This document shows, piece by piece, positions 2,251 through 26,894 of a stretch of DNA of 26,894 bases. Positions within the stretch are counted from its first letter, which is position 1. Every line of letters starts with the position of its first letter. Origin of the DNA: a virus. A program made the translations under genes and the position numbers. Where the stretch lies: positions 1 to 26,894 of IMG/VR virus record IMGVR_UViG_3300045125_000050; one strand, 5' to 3'. Below the pieces are notes generated by a model. It ran no database searches, had not been told where the DNA came from, and saw nothing but the letters and a program-made list of their open reading frames with translations.

Positions 2251-4041
2251 GAGACATCTTGCGCCGTTACCTCGGCCCCACCCCGCCCCGCTCGGATTTC
2301 GAGGACACCGTGCCCATCGGTCAGGCGACCAGCGGAGCGGTGCAGTCCTACGTCCAGTCCTACTCGTACACGGGCGAGGCGATCACGCCTGCTCGAGCTC
2401 TGGAGGCCCCGAGCGTGTACGCCTGCGTCCGTCTGATCGCGTCCAGCATCAGCAGGCTGGAGTGGCAGGTCCTTCGGGAGACCCCCGACGGCAAGATCGC
2501 GGAGCCGGCGCACCCGCTCCACAACCTGCTGAACTACGAGGCGTCGGATGACGTCGGCGCGATCCAGCTGCGTGAGAAGCTGCTGACGGATTGCCTGCTG
2601 ACCGGCAACGCCTACGCCTACATCCACCGCGACCCCGCTGGTCGGCCAGTCGCCCTGGAGGCCCTGCGGCCGGACTACGTCGCCATGTACCGCGACCCTC
2701 AGAACCAGCCCTACTACCAGGTCTGGACCGGCCGCTACACCGGCACGAACGCCGAGAAGGCCGATGCGTCGATTCCGGGCATACGACATGTTCCACCTTG
2801 TCGGGCCGACCACGTTCGACGGCCTGCTCGGCGTGCCACCGATTCACTTGGGCCGCGACGTGATCGCGTTGGAACTGGAGATCACCGAGTACGTGACGCG
2901 GTTCATCGCTAACAACGCGGTCCCGGCTGGCACGCTGAAGATGCCGGGCCGTCTGAGCCCCGAGGCGTCGAAGCGGCTGCGTGAGGCGTGGCAGGCGGCC
3001 CACGGTGGTGCCAGCCGTGCCGGTCGCGTGGCCGTGCTCGAGGACGGCCTGGCATACGAGCCGATCTCAGGAACCTTCAAGGATTCTGAACTTATTGAGA
3101 TGCGGAAGTATTGCCGCCAGCAGATCGCGGCCATGTTCCAAGTCCCGGCCCACAAGGTCGGCGACACCGAGGCGGGCTCGTACAACAGCACGGAGCAGGC
3201 TGACTCCGAGTTCGTCAAGATGACGTTGGCCAGTTGGGCGGCCAAGTTGGAGCTGGAGGCCAGCCGCAAGCTGATCGTGCGCGGCGAGCCGTTCTGCACC
3301 AGGCTGGACTTTGGCAGCCTGCTGCGGGCTGACATGAGCACGCGGTTCCAGGCCTACGCCACCGCGATCACCAACGGCATCCTGACGCCCAACGAAGTCA
3401 GGGCCCTTGAAGGTCGCCCGGCCGTGGACGGCGGCGACGTGATCCGCCTGCCGATGAACACCGAGGCCCCCGGCCAGCAGCCCGCTGCAGCCCCTACCGC
3501 GCCCGCTGAGGCGCCGGAGGCTGAGGAGCCGTCGGTGGACCTTGACCCGGAGGAGATCAATCCGGAGGCATCCAGCGCGCCCGAGGAGCCTGCAGACGAT
3601 GAGGACGAGAATCAGAGAGCGGCCGAGGGCATTGCCGCGGCCCAGCGGATGGCCGCCAGGGCGGCCGTTCGTCCGGCGATCGAGGGTGCGTTCCGCCGTC
3701 ACTTGCAACGGGTCGCCGAGTACCTGACCCGGCAGCGCACGCAGGCGAAGCTCGACAAGTGGGCACCGCCGATCGACTGCCTCGAAGCCGAGCTGCGGGA
3801 CACCGTGGCCGGTCTGGGCCGACTGTACGGAGACGAGTCCAAGGCCCTGACCGCTCTATCCGACTGCCTGCTGAGGCACGCGAGGCACCTGCGCAGCAGC
3901 GTTGGGGCCATCGCCGACGTGGGCAGCGTCATCGACCGATGGGCAACCATTCCGGGCTCGGCCGCGGCCGAACTGCTCGACATGGTTCGTCTGGAGACAA
4001 CCGAAACCCCTGTCCTGGAGGACAACCATGCACAAGACTGA
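2241..4041 (+). CDS. Portal protein (HK97 type), one frame break
   Basis: Forms the dodecameric ring at the capsid vertex through which DNA passes and to which the connector binds. The start is GTG 2241, with AAAGGA at 2228-2233 as ribosome site, overlapping the terL stop by 10 bases. Family signatures: SVYACVRLIASSISRLEW, LLTDCLLTGNAYAYI, the YDMFHL and GLLGVPPI segments, and the clip/wing-like region MFQVPAHKVGD...NSTEQ. The frame shifts from 3 to 1 near 2770-2785 (at GGGCATACGAC) and then stays open to 4041. A proline/alanine/glutamate-rich linker (about residues 410-460) leads to a helical C-terminal extension of roughly 140 residues with many Arg/Ala. The total of about 600 residues is longer than the usual 400-450, so this tail is an unusual addition. 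Confidence 0.93.
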
Positions 4042-4554
4042 AACGCGAGCGACCGGAACCCTGTCCGAGGCAAAGGACCTCAAGGTCCGCGGCTATGCCG
4101 TGGTCTGGGACCCCCCTACGACATGGGCCGCGAGATGGAGCGGGTCGATCCCAAGGCGTTTGACCGGGCCATGGAGGACCCGGCCGACATTGCCCTGCTG
4201 TGGAACCACGACACCGGCAAGCCACTGGCTCGCGTCCGGGCTGGCAACCTGCGTCTATGGACCGACGGCACGGGCCTCGGATTCGAGGCCACCCTGCCCG
4301 ACACGGCAACAGCCAGGGAGGCCCACGCCCTGATCCAGAGCGGCGTTGTGAGCCAGTGCTCGTTCGGGTTCATCGTGCGTGAGGAACGCTACGAGAAGGG
4401 CGAGACCAAGCCCGTTCGCGTGATCCTCGACGCCGACCTGATGGAGCTGAGCCTGGTGACGTTCCCGGCCAACCCGGCAACGAGCGTCGAGGCTCGGTCC
4501 GAAGCCCAGCCGGCGCCGGCCAGGCGTCTTCTTCGCATGTTTCCACCGGCCTGA
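4028..4554 (+). CDS. Prohead maturation protease (HK97/U35 family), one frame break
   Basis: Serine protease that cleaves capsid proteins and itself during head maturation. ATG 4028 has GGAG (4017-4020) as ribosome site and overlaps the portal 3' end by 14 bases. The N-terminal strand reads KVRGYAVVWD, followed after the frame change by MGREMERVDPKAFDRAM. The conserved histidine lies in LLWNHDTGKPLARV and the serine in SQCSFGF, followed by LDADLMELSLVTFPANPAT, all typical of the family. The break is in a run of six C (about 4111-4116), a classic indel position. The product is about 175 residues, normal for the family. It is followed directly by both capsid genes, so it presumably processes one or both. 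Confidence 0.93.
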
Positions 4555-4564
4555 TCGTTGACCC

Positions 4565-4592
4565 TTGAAACGGGTTTTGTGCCTGCGACAAT
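4565..4592 (+). promoter_or_regulatory. Possible sigma70-type promoter ahead of first capsid gene
   Basis: The 225-base gap between protease and first capsid gene contains TTGAAA (4565-4570), 16 bases, then GACAAT (4587-4592) preceded by TGC, an extended -10 arrangement. A nearly identical block TGCGACAAT(A)CCCGGC recurs at 24562-24576. This would give the heavily needed capsid genes their own transcript with a leader of about 180 bases. Inference from base pattern only. Confidence 0.3.
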
Positions 4593-4779
4593 ACCCGGCG
4601 ACAACTCATACCTCCGCTCCCAGCAGCCCCTGCCTAGTGCACGCTGACTGACGAGCGAGCGAGCCTCCGTGCAGCCCGTGTGGCGCACTGGCCCGAATTG
4701 CGGACGTCAACGACGAAGACTTCCGCCGGGTCAGTGCGCCATTTTGCTGCGCAGTCCCGGCGCTAACACGGAGACTGAG

Positions 4780-5934
4780 ATGGCAGACAAGAACACCAAG
4801 CTGGACCGCGGCGGCGAGGAATATCGCGCGCTGTTCCGCAACTACCTGGCGAAGGGCCACAAGGGCCTGACTGATGCTGAGGCCCGTGCCCTGAGCGAGG
4901 GCAGTGCGACGGGAGGCGCCGTGCTGTTCCCAACCACCTACTCCAACATGTTCATGGAGGAAATGGGAGATGACCGCATCGTCGGACGGGTGAGCAAGGT
5001 CTACAGCTCAACCGGAACTTTCAGCGTGCCGATCATCACGCCGGCAAACGCCGGAGGATTTAGTGTGCAGAAGAACCCGGGCGAGGCGGGAACCCTTCTG
5101 GACGCCACCGCCAGCAGCCAGACCACGGTGACCGTTCCGAACTTTACCAATCCCGGAACCAGCAACACTGGAAGCGGAACCGCAACTTTCACGCTCAAGC
5201 GAATCAGCGTGATGGTGCGGGCTTCGCAGGAACTGGTCGAGGACTCCGCACAAATGGGCGATGCAAGTGTGGAGAGCGTCATTGTCAGGCAGGCGTCTCA
5301 AGACATCTATCGGGAACTGAGCCGCCAGATCCTGCTGGGCAACAAGGATGACAGCGTGACTGCCGGAACGGCCAGCACTGCTGGATCGGATGCGTGCCAC
5401 GGCATCGTGAACACTCTGAAGCGTTACAGCAGGTCGATCTCAACGACTACCGCAGTGGGCGTGAATTCGGGACTTCTCGATCAGAACAACTACATCTTGA
5501 ATTGCACGCAAGGTCTGTGTCAGCAAGAACGTCTGCCGTCGCATTATTGGGAGCGCGTCACGTGGATTCTCAATTCACGAATGAACTTCCACACAACCGC
5601 TTCGGCACAGGGTCAGTCCCTGGGCGCGCAAAATCAGAACTGGGTGTCCAACCTGCTGTCATGGAATGACCGAACTTTGTTCGGACAACCGTACACATGG
5701 GCAGACATGAGCCCCACCACGTTTGGCACATCGAACTTTGTTCCAAACGGGGACCCCATGATCATCGGAGTTGACCTGTCGCGATACCTGCTCGCGTTTG
5801 CGGGCAACGGCATCAGCGTGACCCGTCTCAACGAAACTTTCGCCGCCACGAACGAAGCAGCGTTCGTCGTGTCGGTTCGATGCGCAGGTGCGCTGACTGA
5901 CGTGAATGCTGCATTCGGAGTACATCGCGGCTAA
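4780..5934 (+). CDS. Major capsid protein 1, HK97 fold, without long N-terminal scaffold
   Basis: Shell protein of the head. It starts at ATG 4780 after GGAGAC (4770-4775); the frame is open upstream, but that part looks non-coding. The 384-residue product is unbroken, unlike its neighbours. It shows HK97-family landmarks: ARALSEGSATGGAVLFPTTY near residue 32, VMVRASQELVEDS, DIYRELSRQILLGN, then LFGQPYTWADMSP and MIIGVDLSRYLLAF, ending in a terminal strand AFVVSVRCAGALTDVNAAF. Only about 40 residues precede the conserved start of the mature chain, so there is no room for the coiled-coil delta domain that the next gene has. Base composition is visibly less GC-rich than in MCP2 (many AAC TTT, GGA, ACA codons), suggesting a separate origin. 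The two capsid genes are 18 bases apart. Confidence 0.88.
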   Translation: MADKNTKLDRGGEEYRALFRNYLAKGHKGLTDAEARALSEGSATGGAVLFPTTYSNMFMEEMGDDRIVGRVSKVYSSTGTFSVPIITPANAGGFSVQKNPGEAGTLLDATASSQTTVTVPNFTNPGTSNTGSGTATFTLKRISVMVRASQELVEDSAQMGDASVESVIVRQASQDIYRELSRQILLGNKDDSVTAGTASTAGSDACHGIVNTLKRYSRSISTTTAVGVNSGLLDQNNYILNCTQGLCQQERLPSHYWERVTWILNSRMNFHTTASAQGQSLGAQNQNWVSNLLSWNDRTLFGQPYTWADMSPTTFGTSNFVPNGDPMIIGVDLSRYLLAFAGNGISVTRLNETFAATNEAAFVVSVRCAGALTDVNAAFGVHRG

Positions 5935-5952
5935 GCCGCAGAGGAATTGAAC

Positions 5953-7243
5953 ATGGACAGCTACAAGAAGCTGCGGGCTGAGAACGACGCCCGCTACCGC
6001 CAGATGAGCGAGCTGATCGAGAAGGCCAACCAGGCCGGTGGCGATCTCTCGGCCGATGACACCAAGACCTTCGACAGCCTCGACGCCGAGTACCGCCGCG
6101 TCCAGGGCGTGATCGAGAAGAATCACCAGCTGATGGCGCTGGCCGCCAAGGACCGTGAGACGGGCTTTGTGGACGTCGGCCCCGACGCCCCCGAGATGCG
6201 TCGCGCTCCCGCGGCCCGCGAGACCGCTCAGCGGGCTCCCCGCTTCGGCGACTTCCGCTGCTCGGACGAGTACGTGAAGGCGTACGAGACCTACCTGAAG
6301 CGCGGCGAGCACACCCCGGTGGCCGAGATGCGCGCCCTCAGCGAGGGCACGGCGGGCTCCGGCGACGTGCTGCCGCCGACCGAGTTCCACAACGAGCTCG
6401 CAAAGCGTCTGCAGAACATGGTGGCGGTGCGTCAGCTGGCTCGCGTCCTGCCGCTGGGCAGCTGGAAGCGTGAGATCGCTTTCGAGACGGCTCTGCCCAA
6501 CGCGGCGTTCATCGCCGAGGGCAGCGCGCCGACCGAGAACACCGGCACGTTTGTCAACCGCGTCCTGACCCCCGCCGCCTGGCTGGCCTCAGCCTCGTCT
6601 CGAACGAGCTGATGGAGGACGCGCCCGCCCGTGGCCCCGGCTTCTCGATCGAGTCGATCCTGACCGAGCAGTTCGCCCGCAAGTTTGCCGAGGTGGAGGA
6701 GTCCGGGTTCCTGGTTGGCAACGGCACCGCGCCGAACCCGAAGGGCATCCTGACCTACACCACCGGCACGAACACCACCGTCAACACGGGCGCGACGATG
6801 AGCGGCACGGTGGCCTCTCCGGGCCTCACCGCTGCGAACGTGATCGACTGGGTGTACTCGATCCCCGCCAGTACCGCATGCACTCCAGCTGCGCCATCCT
6901 GACGAGCGACACCGTGCTCGGCATGATCCGCAAGCTGGGCTCGGTCGGCGGCACGGTCAACTACTTCTGGCAGCCCTCGGGCATGCTGGGCGAGCCCGAT
7001 CGGATCATGGGCATCCCGGTCTACGCCAGCGCCTACGTCAACTCGATCGCCGCCGGCGCCGTCATCGGCATCGCCGGTGCGTTCGACTACTGCGTGGTCG
7101 GTGAGCGCAGCGGCTACACGCTGAAGGTGCTGCGTGAGCGTTACGCGGACAGCAACCAGACGGGCTTCCTGGCCCAGAACCGCGTGGACGTGACCCTGAC
7201 CCAGACCGAGGCGTTCCGTTACCTCCTGGCTCCGGCCACCTGA
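5953..7243 (+). CDS. Major capsid protein 2, HK97 fold with delta domain, two frame breaks
   Basis: Second, clearly different HK97-family capsid protein, about 429 residues. Start ATG 5953 with GAGGAA (5941-5946) six bases upstream. Residues 1-70 form a charged heptad-like helix (KKLRAENDARYRQMSELIEK and onward), as in scaffold/delta domains, followed by the probable maturation zone AEMRALSEGTAGSGDVLPPTE. Core motifs: ETALPNAAFIAEGSAPTEN, RLAGLSLVSNELMEDA (after one base is added to the C5 run at 6569-6573), VGNGTAPNPKGIL, SIPxQYRMHSSCAILTSDT (a second missing base near 6870), GIPVYAS, and the terminal strand RVDVTLTQTEAFRYL. It shares the RALSEG(S/T)A block with MCP1. Both could be cut by the same protease. 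Either could be the principal shell subunit; MCP2 has the more standard architecture. Confidence 0.92.
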
Positions 7244-7303: not shown

Positions 7304-7498
7304 ATGCCGAAGGTCAAGGTCATCCAGGCGTACGCGGACACCAGGGACGTGCACCAGGTTGGTGAAGTCCTCGACGTTGATGACCGCACCGCCACTGAAC
7401 TCATTGCCACCGGACTGGCCGAGCGAGACGAGCCCGAGCCCCGTGCGTGCGTGAAGCCTGACTGCTGCCGAGCCGTCAAGAAGGGAGCCAAGGCGTGA
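7304..7498 (+). CDS. Small head-region protein, 64 residues
   Basis: Intact small gene starting at ATG 7304, 12 bases after the stem-loop. The first 45 residues (PKVKVIQAYAD, GEVLDVDDRTATELIATGLAE) match the short proteins often found between capsid and connector genes in HK97-like phages, where a basic strand is followed by a helix ending in a GLA(E/x) turn. The tail carries a CVKPDCCRAVKKGAKA segment with three cysteines. Exact role is unknown; a head-joining or decoration-linked function is possible. The stop overlaps the next start (GTGA). Confidence 0.75.
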   Translation: MPKVKVIQAYADTRDVHQVGEVLDVDDRTATELIATGLAERDEPEPRACVKPDCCRAVKKGAKA

Positions 7499-8091
7499 GC
7501 GACGGGATGCGAACAACCCTGTCTGACACGGGTGCCTCGTCGCCTGCCATCACTGCGTCGGACGTGAAGACCCACGCCAGGATCTATCACACGCAGGATG
7601 ACACCTACCTGAGCACGCTTGTCACGACGGCCACGCAGATCATCGAGCATGAGACCCGCCGGGCTCTCATCAATCGCACCTTCGCGTACCAGCTCGAAGG
7701 CTTCCCGGCCGACGGCGAGATCATCCTGCCGCGCTCGCCGCTGTCCAGCGTCACGAGCGTCACCTACACGGACGCAGCCGGAGCAACGCAGACTCTGGCG
7801 TCGAGCGTCTACCACACCTACAGCGTCAACGGCATCGGCCGGGTGGTGCTGAAGAGCACCGAATCCTGGCCCACCACGCTGGGCACTGGCGGGCTGGACG
7901 TGACGGTGAACTTCGTCGCCGGTTACGGGGCGTCCGCAACGAACGTCCCCGCAGCACTGCGGCACGCCTGCCTGCTGCAGGCGACACACCTGTACGACAA
8001 CCGCACGGCCGTGGGCCCGACGCAGCTCTACGAGGTCCCGATGACCGTGCAGCGCCTGATCGTGCAGTACCACAGCGGGGACTACTCATGA
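7495..8091 (+). CDS. Head-tail connector (HK97 gp6-like adaptor)
   Basis: Ring protein that binds under the portal. Intact, 198 residues from GTG 7495, whose bases overlap the previous TGA. The family pattern is clear: ITASDVKTHARI with DDTYLSTLVTTATQIIEHET helices at the N-terminus, RRALINRTFAYQLEGFP and the ILPRSPLSSVTSVTY strand, VNFVAGYG, and VPAALRHACLLQATHLYDNR near the end. Location right after capsid and before head closure agrees. Ends with an ATGA overlap to the next gene. Confidence 0.88.
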   Translation: MSDGMRTTLSDTGASSPAITASDVKTHARIYHTQDDTYLSTLVTTATQIIEHETRRALINRTFAYQLEGFPADGEIILPRSPLSSVTSVTYTDAAGATQTLASSVYHTYSVNGIGRVVLKSTESWPTTLGTGGLDVTVNFVAGYGASATNVPAALRHACLLQATHLYDNRTAVGPTQLYEVPMTVQRLIVQYHSGDYS

Positions 8092-8432
8092 ACCCGGGCT
8101 ACATGCGGACGCCGCTGGCGGTCTACAACCCGACCGACTCGACCGACGAGTTCGGGCAGGTCACCAACAGCAAGGCCACCAGCACGCTGACCGTCATGGC
8201 TGCCATCAACGAGGCGAGCGCGGAGGAGCGGATGAACCACCGGCAGCTGAACCAGGTGGTCACGCACAAGATCCGGACCCGCTGGCACCCGGACATCACG
8301 CACCGCAGCCAGCTGCGGACGGTGGCTCAGGAGCAGGGCAAGACGCAAACGACGTGGGAAGTGGTCACGGTCATCGACTGGCAGGAACGGCGTCAGTACC
8401 TCGACCTGGTCTGCAGGCAGATTGTGACGTGA
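8088..8432 (+). CDS. Head closure / head-tail joining protein (SPP1 gp16-like)
   Basis: Intact, 114 residues from ATG 8088 in an ATGA overlap. It begins MNPGYMRTPLAVYNPT with DEFGQV following, then ASAEERM, THKIRTRWHPDITHRSQL and a terminal VTVIDWQERRQYLDLVC strand, the usual layout of the small beta-barrel that plugs the connector and accepts the tail (phage head-tail joining family). Position between the gp6-like adaptor and the gp10-like gene is standard. Confidence 0.87.
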   Translation: MNPGYMRTPLAVYNPTDSTDEFGQVTNSKATSTLTVMAAINEASAEERMNHRQLNQVVTHKIRTRWHPDITHRSQLRTVAQEQGKTQTTWEVVTVIDWQERRQYLDLVCRQIVT

Positions 8433-16118: not shown

Positions 16119-17478
16119 ATGGTGATCCGGGTCACCGTAGAGTTTTGCGTGGATTCAGGTTGTGCAGCTCGGGGCGACGTTGGCTTGCTTGACCAGGTCG
16201 AGGCTTGGCAAGTGTACGCGCGAAGTCCAGGGCCACAGTCCCGAACACGCGGCACAAGCGGCCCGCTGGGCGCGCTCGTGGCTGCAACATTCACGCGAAC
16301 ACGCTACGCCAGATGCGTGCGTAGCGTGGCTTCGGGACATGACTCGCGGGGCCGCGCTTAGCCCCCAGACCATCCGCAACCGGGCCAGTGCCTGCAGGCG
16401 TTTCTGTGGCTGGATGGTTGTCCAGGGCGTGCTGGACGCCAACCCGTGGGCGTCGGTCCCGATGCCCCGAGGACGGGCAAAGCAGGGTGCGGACGCATTC
16501 ACGGACGAGCAGGTGGCCGCGCTCATCGCCCAGGCTGAACGCATGTCCAAGCAGGGACGCAAGCCCGCGGATCGAGCGTCGGCTGCCAACCGGGCCAACC
16601 TGTACAGGTTCCTCAGCTTGACCGGCCTACGCCGAGGCGAGGCTCGGGCTCAGCGATGGGAAGACATTGACCTGCAGGCCCGCACCATGGTGGTGACCCA
16701 CGACAAGGCCCGGCGGGCTGACCCGATCCCGCTGTCTGTGGCAGCGTGTGGCATGCTGCGGCAGATGCTGGCAGGACGTGGCACTGGGCTGGTGTTCCCG
16801 ACCATCGTCACCGACAAGGCCCTTGAGGCCGACTGCCGCGCCTGCGGGATCACCGGCCGAGGCAAGTGGCACCGATTCCGGGTTGGGTTCGTCACCGAAT
16901 CCTTCGAGGCCGGGGTGGCCCCTGAACTGATCCAGCGGCTGGCGAGGCACCGCTCTATCGACCAGACCCACCGATACTTGCGTCATCGGGAAGAGCGGCT
17001 CCGTGATGCTGTCGAGCAAAGATCGGAAAAATATCGAAATGGCTGTCCTCCAAAACCTCGTGCAGCCGATAGGTTCCCCGTGGATTCAGACATGGCCCAC
17101 GGCGCAACCATCACCGAGAGCACCAAGACGACCAGCCAGGTCGCAGCGCCCACCGGCCCTGAATCCACAAACAACCTGGCTGGTCTTCTGCGTGCTCTCG
17201 GCCGCTCGCAGGTGCCTGTTGCTCCGGCAAACGAAAAGGCCCGCGTCAATCGACGCGAGCCTCTCGTGAGTCGGGGTGACAGGATTTGCACCGACACCCC
17301 CACCGACGTGGGAGCCGAGCGGCTGATCCATGCGGCCACGCTCCTCTTGGAGCTGGCCGTGCTGCAGATGCAGCGAGGAGCCGCCAGTGACAACGCAGAA
17401 CGCGGGACGATTCGGGCAAGTGGTCGAGGACGTGGGCCTCGCCATTCAGGAACTTCGCAACGACAGCCGCGGGCTTGA
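16119..17478 (+). CDS. int: Tyrosine recombinase (integrase), one frame break near the N-terminus
   Basis: Site-specific recombinase that inserts the phage into the host chromosome. ATG 16119 (or GTG 16122) gives IRVTVEFCVDSGCAARGDV; the frame changes near 16210-16225 to TREVQGHSPEHAAQAARWAR. A SAM-like core-binding domain (AALSPQTIRNRASACRRFCG) precedes the catalytic domain: Arg I in TGLRRGEARAQRWEDI, Lys in HDKARR, HxxR in KWHRFRVGF, His/Arg in LARHRSID and the nucleophile Tyr in THRYL (codon 16975-16977). The open frame continues well past the catalytic tyrosine (DSDMAHGATITES..., ESTNNLAGLLRALG) through the attP-like segment to 17478. This read-through end, overlapping the gene at 17387, is probably not native; the true stop is likely before about 17270 and hidden by an indel. 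Confidence 0.9.
17233..17261 (-). terminator. Intrinsic terminator on the minus strand beside attP
   Basis: Read on the minus strand: GGCTCGCGTC, loop GATT, GACGCGGGCC (one U-G pair), then TTTTCG. It lies immediately 3' of the tRNA-like end at 17268-17292, exactly where a host tRNA-Pro gene would have its terminator. Integration would thus restore both tRNA end and terminator. Confidence 0.7.
17268..17292 (-). other. attP: Probable attP core: 3' end of a tRNA-Pro gene
   Basis: On the minus strand the segment reads GGTGCAAATCCTGTCACCCC followed by GACTC. This is the T-loop, T-stem and 3' acceptor strand of bacterial tRNA-Pro (usual form GGTTCAAATCCTGTCACCCC). The rest of a tRNA is absent: no CGGGGTG 5' acceptor strand and no proper anticodon arm follow in the next 100 bases. 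A tRNA 3' end next to an integrase is the usual layout of phage attachment sites. The core probably covers at least 17268-17287, where identity to the tRNA ends with an altered T-loop base. Confidence 0.72.
17308..17390 (+). CDS. Possible small hydrophobic peptide gene between attP and next gene
   Basis: From GTG 17308 the frame reads MGAERLIHAATLLLELAVLQ then MQRGAAS, a coherent amphipathic helix encoded after attP and before the GTG at 17387. The stop would be TGA 17388-17390 if one indel lies just upstream; as written the frame instead continues. It could be a short separate gene or simply read-through of the integrase frame. Confidence 0.25.
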
Positions 17479-18175: not shown

Positions 18176-18294
18176 GCCACAAGGCAATCGCCAAGCGGCT
18201 AGGGATCAAGGTTTGCACAGTGCGCACGCATGAGAAACGAGCGCTTCTCAAGCTCCTGCGTGCGTGCCAGCGGGAGGGCATCCGATGCAACTGA
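18172..18294 (+). CDS. 40-residue helix-turn-helix protein, sigma region 4-like
   Basis: Small gene from ATG 18172 (ATGA overlap with the preceding stop, GGAGGAG at 18160-18166 as ribosome site) to TGA 18292-18294, overlapping the exonuclease start by 10 bases. The product is almost only a helix-turn-helix: MSHKAIAKRLGIKVCTVRTH followed by EKRALLKLLRACQREG. The pattern xxIAxRLGIxxxTVRxHxxRALxKL is that of sigma-70 region 4.2 and LuxR-type recognition helices. Alone it could bind a -35-like site or RNA polymerase. Its tight coupling to the recombination genes suggests that it regulates them. The regular ribosome site and overlaps argue that it is real despite its size. Confidence 0.72.
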   Translation: MSHKAIAKRLGIKVCTVRTHEKRALLKLLRACQREGIRCN

Positions 18295-19127
18295 CCTACG
18301 AGAACTGCTCGGTGCCTGACATGCCTGCGGAGCGGTATCACGCCATCGAGGCGTTGAGCAGCACGGTGGCCCGGGATTTGCTGTCGGCCAGCCCGATGCA
18401 CGCCTTGCACCGCCAGCAGCACCGTGACGAGACGCCAGCGATGCGTCTGGGGACCGCGCTGCATTCGGCCGTGCTGGAGCCCGAGCGTCGAATGATCGCC
18501 GTGGCACCAGACGTGGACCGCCGGACGAAGGATGGCAAGGCCAGGTACGAGGAGTTTCTGTTGGCCAACGCTGGAAAGATCACGCTGACCGCCGAGCAGG
18601 GAGACCTGCTGGCCGGGATGCTGTGTGGCATCCGCCGCTGTAAGTCGGCACTGTCAGTGCTCAACGTCGCCCCCAGCCGTGAACTCTCGCTGTTTGCCAG
18701 AGAACCGGCAAAGGGCGTTCTGTGCAAGGCTCGGATCGACGCGCTCAGCGTGTCTGAGCGGTTCATCCTGGACGTGAAGAGCACCAGCGGCGTGGCAACC
18801 ACTGACGAGTTCGAGCGTGCGATTGCGGCCCGCGGCTACGGCTTCCAGGCCGCGTTCTACATGCACGTCGCGTCGTTGCTGGGCTACGAGGTGGACACGT
18901 TCGCCTTCGTGGTGGTCGAGTCGGAGCCGCCGCACGGGTGTGCGGTGTTCATGCTGGAGCCCGAGGTGATCGACCTGTACATGCCAAAGGTCGCGAAGTC
19001 GATTGAGACCTACGCCGGGTGCGTTGGCAATGCCGAGTGGCCGGGCTACGAGGACAAGGTGCGACGAATTGGCATTCCAGCATGGCAGCGAAAGCAGCTG
19101 CTGGACGGCATGGAGGTGGCAGCATGA
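18285..19127 (+). CDS. PD-(D/E)XK exonuclease (RecE/exonuclease VIII-like)
   Basis: Intact, 280 residues from ATG 18285. Probable 5'-3' exonuclease that makes single-strand tails for phage recombination. Signatures: LSSTVARDLLSASPMHALH and RLGTALHSAVLEPER at the N-terminus (the GTALH helix typical of the family); the catalytic core CKARIDALS...ILDVKST with Asp and D-x-K; and the following QAAFYM helix (Gln motif). The C-terminal region (GIPAWQRKQLLDG) is basic. The next two genes encode an annealing-type protein and an SSB-like protein, completing a lambda Red / RecET-like set. Family assignment is from the motif order. Confidence 0.85.
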   Translation: MQLTYENCSVPDMPAERYHAIEALSSTVARDLLSASPMHALHRQQHRDETPAMRLGTALHSAVLEPERRMIAVAPDVDRRTKDGKARYEEFLLANAGKITLTAEQGDLLAGMLCGIRRCKSALSVLNVAPSRELSLFAREPAKGVLCKARIDALSVSERFILDVKSTSGVATTDEFERAIAARGYGFQAAFYMHVASLLGYEVDTFAFVVVESEPPHGCAVFMLEPEVIDLYMPKVAKSIETYAGCVGNAEWPGYEDKVRRIGIPAWQRKQLLDGMEVAA

Positions 19128-26503: not shown

Positions 26504-26831
26504 GACAGCGTCCGCCCAGGCTGAGGGTTGGCCCTGCCCCGACGCCGCGAGTCGTGACGCGGCAGTCCGAGGACCGAGGGACCACGCATGAGCGCGGCTA
26601 CGGACGCCAACTGGCAGCAGCTGCAGACTGGTGGTGCTCAACAAGGAGCCGACCTGTCGCCGGTGCATGGAACGAGGCAGAGTGACCGCGGCCACGGTGG
26701 TCGATCACATTCGCCCGCTGCGGGACGGCGGCGACCACGGCCGCGACAACCTGCAGCCCCTGTGCGTGGATTGCCACGCGGTGAAGACGCAGCAGGACCT
26801 GCGGGCTAGGAGGGCCGATTTTGGTGCATAA
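26500..26831 (+). CDS. HNH endonuclease (packaging-associated), two frame breaks
   Basis: ATG 26500 gives MRQRPPRLRVGPAPTPRVVT and THERGYGRQ; two single-base shifts (about 26610 and 26630) then lead through WQQLQT to VVLNKEPTCRRCMERGRV and the HNH core DHIRPL, GDHGRDNLQPLCVDCHAVK, ending at TAA 26829-26831. Two zinc pairs (CRRC, CVDC), the catalytic DH and the Asn are all present. About 109 residues. HNH nucleases encoded next to the terminase often support cos cleavage and packaging; in a circular genome this gene would lie about 240 bases upstream of terS. Confidence 0.85.
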
Positions 26832-26834
26832 ACG

Positions 26835-26870
26835 GCCATTTCATAAAAGTGGCGATATTGGGCCAATATC
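26835..26870. repeat. Two adjacent stem-loops at the HNH-terminase junction
   Basis: First hairpin: GCCATTT (26835-26841) with AAGTGGC (26847-26853), one U-G pair, loop CATAA. Second, directly next to it: GATATTGG (26854-26861) and CCAATATC (26863-26870), perfect with a single-base centre. They lie in the non-coding end of the window, which in a circle would be the gap before terS. They may be a packaging (cos/pac) or operator site, or a terminator of the early operon. Confidence 0.55.
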
Positions 26871-26894
26871 GGGGGTGTGCCAAAATCGCGCGCA

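Follow-up and report, generated by a model that had tools for sequence, protein, structure and literature searches.

A conserved tandem pair of predicted HK97-fold capsid genes in a lineage of small tailed phages, with a possible vertex role for the first

The stretch of DNA analyzed here, the window, is the IMG/VR virus record IMGVR_UViG_3300045125_000050 with a length of 26,894 bp. Its head genes lie on the plus strand and begin with those for the terminase small subunit (239-715; phrog_83, E 8.5e-17), the terminase large subunit (678-2250; phrog_9, E 8e-123, and TerL_ATPase), the portal protein (2260-4041, with its C-terminal part at 2764-4041; Phage_portal, E 2.4e-64) and a prohead protease of the Peptidase_S78 family (4123-4554; PF04586, 126 bits; phrog_80, E 1.9e-48). 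The latter is the sole prohead protease gene found, and its true start may lie further upstream of 4123. Two predicted HK97-fold shell genes follow: MCP1 (4780-5934), for a second shell protein of 384 amino acids, and MCP2 (5953-7243), for a major capsid protein with a predicted fused delta (scaffold) domain. The head module continues with a small gene of 64 codons (7304-7498), which shows weak similarity to DUF7302/DUF7210 with a Pfam score below the cut-off and is kept in nearly all relatives whose contig extends there, and with the genes for a head-tail adaptor (Ad1, 7495-8091; phrog_442, E 6.5e-28) and a head closure protein (Hc1, 8088-8432; phrog_25, E 2.3e-11). Downstream of head closure are tail genes, genes for an integrase (phrog_1; 16162-17478) and exonuclease VIII (18264-19127), primase/helicase-like and RusA-like genes and, at the genome end, a plus-strand HNH endonuclease gene (26631-26831; phrog_589, E 2e-19). 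The integrase and exonuclease VIII genes indicate that the phage is probably temperate.

Frame breaks are numerous in the window record and affect the terminase large subunit, the portal, MCP2 and parts of the tail and replication genes. Since these genes are intact in relatives, where the terminase large subunit is an open frame of about 550-560 codons, the breaks are a property of this record and not of the lineage; either error-prone assembly or a decaying genome could be their source. Contig ends fall between the HNH and terminase small subunit genes in the window (26631-26894 and 1-715) as well as in L044, L146, L060, L081 and L099. The same end site is found in contigs G001, G005, G012, G014 and G015, suggesting a real terminus, and the several independent contig ends suggest that the genome has a fixed end, for example a cos site. 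In relatives that are cut elsewhere (e.g., G006 and G002), the HNH and terminase matches are some 600-1000 bp apart, and the window is thus close to a whole genome. The longest member records of this lineage, which is represented by metagenome sequences only, are 24.4-27.8 kb. By the published relation between genome size and triangulation number, G = 10^0.37 T^1.47 (PMC7762592), this range corresponds to a T of about 5, which lies above T=4 and below T=7, although this is only an allometric hint.

The sequence-only reading of this DNA had described two unlike HK97-fold capsid genes in tandem behind one protease, and the profile matches, the models and the single Peptidase_S78 gene agree with that description. 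MCP1 is open from the ATG at 4780 to the stop codon at 5932-5934, bearing out the earlier statement that it is intact with 384 residues. It matches PF05065 with 58.9 bits (cut-off 24.2) and phrog_10 with E 1e-21. Its predicted structure (pLDDT 67, pTM 0.67) matched solved HK97-type shells by Foldseek (E 1.9e-11, prob 1.00) and gave VIA Z scores up to 16.9 with an rmsd of 4.0 over 250 residues. In this model, the E-loop comprises residues 77-136 (5008-5187) and the A-domain residues 189-325 (5344-5754). Structure prediction, which had been named as a test of the two-capsid claim, thus gave an HK97-type model for MCP1 rather than another fold.

MCP2 is spread over three frames in the window (5953-6612, about 6590-6902 and 6878-7243) by its two frame breaks, and each piece matches both phrog_10 and PF05065 (27.3, 41.8 and 57.3 bits, respectively). 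The gene encodes 414-442 amino acids where it is intact in relatives that have it whole. The nearest of these, in L036, encodes 431 residues, the N-terminal part of which is predicted to be a coiled coil (helices 2-28 and 34-69), close to the about 429 residues with such an N-terminus described earlier; that description did not mention that the window copy is broken. Residues 1-127 (5953-6333) form the predicted delta domain or propeptide, which would end at the arginine of EMRALSEG, as judged from the L036 helices and the start of the HK97 chain. The predicted structure of L036 MCP2 (pLDDT 71, pTM 0.56) likewise matched HK97-type shells (Foldseek E 2.6e-18, prob 1.00), and the best solved relative of MCP2 is the Rhodobacter capsulatus gene transfer agent (GTA) capsid protein (E 9e-51). 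Although the models are of medium quality, with pLDDT values of 67 for MCP1 and 71 for L036 MCP2, both proteins are predicted to adopt the HK97 fold. All relatives scanned, 51/51 for MCP1 and 40/40 for MCP2, match phrog_10.

We compared the two proteins by profile-profile alignment with hhalign. MCP1 from residue 9 to its end pairs with MCP2 from about residue 101 to its end (Prob 99.9, E 3.5e-32), with 21% identity over 309 columns. The block common to the two (EARALSEGSATGG in MCP1 and EMRALSEGTAGSG in MCP2) had been noted before as nearly all that they share; the block is real, but the similarity extends from end to end. Of the delta domain, MCP1 is without only the coiled-coil part of about 100 residues; the last helix and the E-x-R-A-[LI]-S motif are kept. 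The short predicted propeptide of MCP1 (residues 1-36, 4780-4887) would consist of the last delta-domain helix and aligns with MCP2 residues of about 101-127. Across MCP1 relatives, E34 and R36 are invariant and A37 and S39 nearly so, and EARALSEG (4879-4902) is the putative maturation site by its alignment with MCP2 and its offset to the HK97 chains. The mature HK97 chain begins at the cleavage site, residue 104. Its start corresponds to approximately position 129 of the MCP2 profile, and in the structure match HK97 residue 119 corresponds to MCP1 residue 48. Together, these correspondences place the predicted cut near the conserved arginine, R127 in MCP2 and R36 in MCP1, and MCP1 is probably cleaved by the same S78 protease as MCP2. 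The genes differ in composition as well. The earlier observation that MCP1 is richer in AT was confirmed by the G+C contents in the window, which are 58.3% in MCP1 versus 67.9% in MCP2, and MCP1 has the lower G+C in 60/66 relatives, too.

Relatives were collected with MCP1, one MCP2 piece and alignments of each as queries, which yielded about 100 contigs. After removal of identical copies, IMG/VR provided 66 non-identical full-length MCP1-MCP2 pairs. The order was the same in all, with the pair located behind the protease wherever the contig extends that far and with 15-30 or 71-102 nt between the two genes; the pair is incomplete solely at contig ends. A PF05065 scan of 28 records, in which the matches fall into pieces for the window, L018 and L165, found two capsid genes in every untruncated member and one in the distant outgroups L050 and L051. 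Four isolate or prophage records that are near by terminase, protease or capsid have one capsid-sized gene after the protease. With MCP1 as the query, tblastn at 1e-5 found no match in isolate phages or plasmids, and a scan of genome contigs with the MCP1 sequence found no relative. Five weak alphaproteobacterial matches came from a scan of genome contigs with the MCP1 alignment, and all scored better as MCP2-type proteins. We found no open-access paper that describes a small siphovirus with HK97-fold capsid genes in tandem. L165 carries a tandem capsid pair (2307-3530 and 3540-4823) that is far more divergent, MCP1 included, a hint that tandem capsid genes may go back further and occur more widely than the MCP1 profile can reveal.

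In a tree of 46 proteins, MCP2 falls on one side with a support of 100/99 and MCP1 on one side with 91/73. An AU test did not reject MCP1 and MCP2 as a single clade (p 0.162), so the two may have originated either by duplication within the lineage or by an older divergence. These results bear on the possibility that the two genes come from different genomes joined in assembly, or that MCP1 is a recently acquired and redundant second capsid gene. The difference in G+C and the frame breaks in the window would fit such an origin. However, the same order recurs in dozens of independent contigs and the proteins form separate old clades, which refutes it, and we regard its chances as negligible. The comparison of related records for the retention of both genes, proposed with the earlier reading, thus came out against an assembly join. 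The suggestion of a second shell acquired by transfer is not supported: MCP1 is old, its sequences fall together on the tree and, wherever both genes are visible, it is accompanied by MCP2. We are highly confident that this is a conserved pair of HK97-fold shell genes.

MCP1 occurs in distinct types. The long type has 375-394 amino acids and the E-loop motif [QL]xNPGE in 33/33 cases; the short and insert types have 329-342 and 415-417 amino acids, respectively, and the motif in 0/33. When this long or short label is placed on the MCP2 tree, 10 changes are needed, at least 8 of them by well-supported branches. L081 and L103 are 92% identical in MCP2 versus 25% in MCP1, whereas L039 and L055 have identical MCP1 and 69% identical MCP2. 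By these sequence comparisons, MCP1 alleles transfer between members of this lineage.

The E-loop is where relatives of MCP1 carry fibre-domain inserts. It is 124 residues long in ten insert-type MCP1s, seven of which were scanned; in these seven, the segment at about 88-170 is similar to repeats from tail-fibre, baseplate and virion structural proteins. Examples in which the insert is a repeat common to tail-fibre and baseplate proteins are the MCP1 genes of L046 (2601-3851) and L146 (4629-5876). In the MCP1 of L165 (2307-3530), residues of about 94-164 form a tail-fibre-type domain of another kind (phrog_9370). The only comparable match in the 40 MCP2 relatives scanned was to the structural-protein family phrog_1623, in 13/40, and MCP2 lengths stay within 414-442 amino acids.

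A further gene accompanies some of these MCP1s. Between MCP2 and the adaptor gene, all 32 long-type loci and five short-type ones (L038, L166, L167, L172 and L173) have a gap of about 250 bp, and the other 20 of the 25 short or insert loci have one of 1.3-2.2 kb. Beyond MCP2, 20/20 loci with one MCP1 subclade contain the extra gene, compared with 0/37 others. The subclade was delimited partly after the gap had been seen: L038 and L167 are a supported MCP1 pair in the tree, and L166, L172 and L173 were grouped with them by MCP1 length (329-330 amino acids, like L167) and by having no extra gene. On the MCP2 tree, with the chosen subclade, the extra gene and the MCP1 subclade each change five times, and agreement is seen in 4/4 independent pairs, a number too small to be significant (sign test p 0.125). 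When all short types are counted, 3-4 pairs agree, none disagree and 3-4 are without difference. The product of the extra gene has about 285-578 amino acids. In most copies, the N-terminus is a short conserved segment (e.g., M[KR]GN[AS]YVPFMLRRG or MSRSNAAAALLFR), and what follows in the copies typed is a tail-protein (phrog_5939), glycine-rich (PF21722) or GDSL-lipase-like (PF13472) module. Such interchangeable C-terminal modules are found in L044 (5648-6901), L155 (3014-4318), L161 (4898-5749) and L106 (5605-7020). Such a layout is that of an anchored adhesin. Because MCP2 and the small gene separate the extra gene from MCP1, the linkage is suggestive of a functional tie to MCP1 but no proof of one.

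Codon usage and divergence provide clues to the roles of the two proteins. Codon bias was measured by ENC', which is corrected for composition and is lower when bias is stronger. The mean values were 43.6 for MCP2, 49.2 for MCP1, 47.5 for portal, 46.8 for TerL and 47.9 for the adaptor. The bias of MCP2 is the strongest among the head genes tested, exceeding that of MCP1 in 89% of pairs and that of portal in 91%, while MCP1 is more biased than portal in 42%. This contrast suggests that MCP2 is abundant and MCP1 low-copy like portal and terminase. Among genomes with MCP2 at least 85% identical, and with domain boundaries that are approximate since they come from models and alignment, the A-domain is the least conserved part of MCP1, with 55% identity and 10 gap positions on average. 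The MCP1 E-loop is 70% identical and its N-extension, N-arm and P-domain 74-79%; the MCP2 A-domain is 87% identical in the same genomes.

We propose that one shell would be built from two HK97-fold proteins, with a chance that we put at about even that MCP1 occupies the capsid vertices as pentamers, like T4 gp24, and MCP2 forms the hexamers. In the architecture we infer, which extends to the cleavage, copy number, vertex position and anchoring of MCP1, MCP2 would be the abundant hexamer-forming protein with its fused delta domain as scaffold. MCP1 would be an ancient second copy of the fold that lost the coiled-coil scaffold, retained the cleavage segment, is probably cut by the S78 protease that cuts MCP2 and takes a dedicated minority position, most likely as pentamers at the 11 non-portal vertices. 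As such pentamers would be without the coiled coil, the hexamers may supply the scaffold in trans. Among the readings offered earlier, MCP1 as a pentamer subunit with MCP2 providing the scaffold in trans fit best. With an A-domain that would touch only other MCP1 copies at the five-fold axis and an E-loop on the outside, MCP1 could diversify freely, be swapped between phages and carry or anchor adhesin-type domains. A dedicated vertex subunit would therefore account together for the low-copy codons, the loss of the scaffold domain, the freedom of the A-domain and a surface role. One doubt is that single-capsid relatives presumably form both pentamers and hexamers from one protein, so that no vertex protein is needed in principle. 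In addition, free recombination between MCP1 and MCP2 is not expected of a tightly co-adapted interface, unless the contact surfaces are the conserved parts, and the weaker codon bias of MCP1 could reflect recent swapping instead of low expression. More tentatively, MCP1 may be a vertex platform for surface interaction that presents interchangeable adhesin domains (fibre repeats, glycine-rich or GDSL-like) on its E-loop or binds them at its surface. These would be exchanged along with a partner head-fibre gene while the main shell protein stays the same, and with two proteins the shell of these 24-28 kb phages may also reach a size above T=4 and below T=7. The linkage of the adhesin gene rests on about 4-5 independent switches, and that gene is nearer to MCP2 than to MCP1.

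The main rival to a vertex position is a mixed shell, in which the two proteins would share capsomers or combine in a variable ratio, as in the two-component Family 2B encapsulins. There is documented precedent for two HK97-fold paralogues that assemble together into irregularly tiled shells of variable composition (PMC12407261), both of those encapsulin subunits are structural matches of MCP1, and the P-domain and N-arm are conserved in MCP1 and MCP2. Yet a hypervariable A-domain in MCP1 next to a conserved one in MCP2 is unexpected if both meet at one capsomer axis, and the codon bias suggests unequal expression; we consider a mixed shell rather unlikely. The fibre-type E-loop inserts, the variable A-domain and the adhesin-like gene that accompanies one MCP1 subclade would also suit an HK97-fold accessory, namely an outer decoration or platform protein for adhesin display or anchoring that is no lattice subunit. 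MCP1, however, still has an N-arm, an E-loop, a P-domain and the cleavage motif, as lattice-forming capsid proteins do, and we know of no HK97-fold decoration protein, which makes this role improbable. An even slimmer chance is given to MCP1 making an alternative particle, altering capsid size or serving around the portal vertex only. Unusual geometry is conceivable, as 24.4-27.8 kb is more than expected for T=4 and less than expected for T=7 (PMC7762592), but there is one genome with one packaging system, the pair is never split and neither a satellite nor regulated use is indicated.

Under a dedicated vertex role for MCP1, this lineage makes testable how a pentamer subunit could arise from capsid duplication, whether delta-domain scaffolds could act in trans and whether a shell subunit could turn into an adhesin platform. 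The natural MCP1 swaps separate the roles of the two subunits. Annotation pipelines that assume one major capsid protein per phage will misread this group.

Among the closest known systems is the family of HK97 gp5 (PF05065, phrog_10), with which the lineage shares the order of terminase, portal, protease and capsid genes, the delta domain fused to the capsid protein and the fold. That family normally has one capsid gene after the protease, whereas the lineage here has two. The R. capsulatus GTA capsid protein Rcc01687, the nearest solved relative of MCP2 and also the best VIA match of MCP1 (Z 16.9), is a single shell protein as far as the structure entries listed show. Family 2B encapsulins of Streptomyces lydicus resemble the pair in that one operon encodes two HK97-fold proteins of one shell (PMC12407261). 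Unlike the pair, they form a cellular compartment without DNA packaging genes and have a variable composition instead of fixed roles; the MCP genes are flanked by terminase, portal, protease and connector genes.

The pairing of two shell proteins that share a fold is best known from the much larger phage T4. There, gp23 forms the hexamers and gp24 the pentameric vertices; they are HK97-fold paralogues of one virion, about 20% identical and processed by one protease, and the minor one has the much shorter propeptide, 10 residues in gp24 versus 65 in gp23 (PMC9958956). MCP1 is likewise a paralogue of the major capsid protein with the same predicted fold and low identity (21%), lies behind a single protease gene and has a short N-extension with the conserved E-x-R-A-[LI]-S motif, which may be cut by that protease. 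As a PF05065 member, it showed no sequence link to gp24; gp24 was absent among the fold or sequence matches listed for MCP1, which does not exclude similarity. T4 differs in being a 171-kb phage with a separate scaffold core, whereas here the genomes have 24-28 kb and the scaffold is fused to MCP2. The use of a separate HK97-fold protein for part of the shell has been described as T4's departure from other well-studied phages (PMC9958956). If MCP1 takes the vertices, the same solution has apparently evolved independently in a simple lineage of about 27 kb whose head module is unrelated to that of T4.
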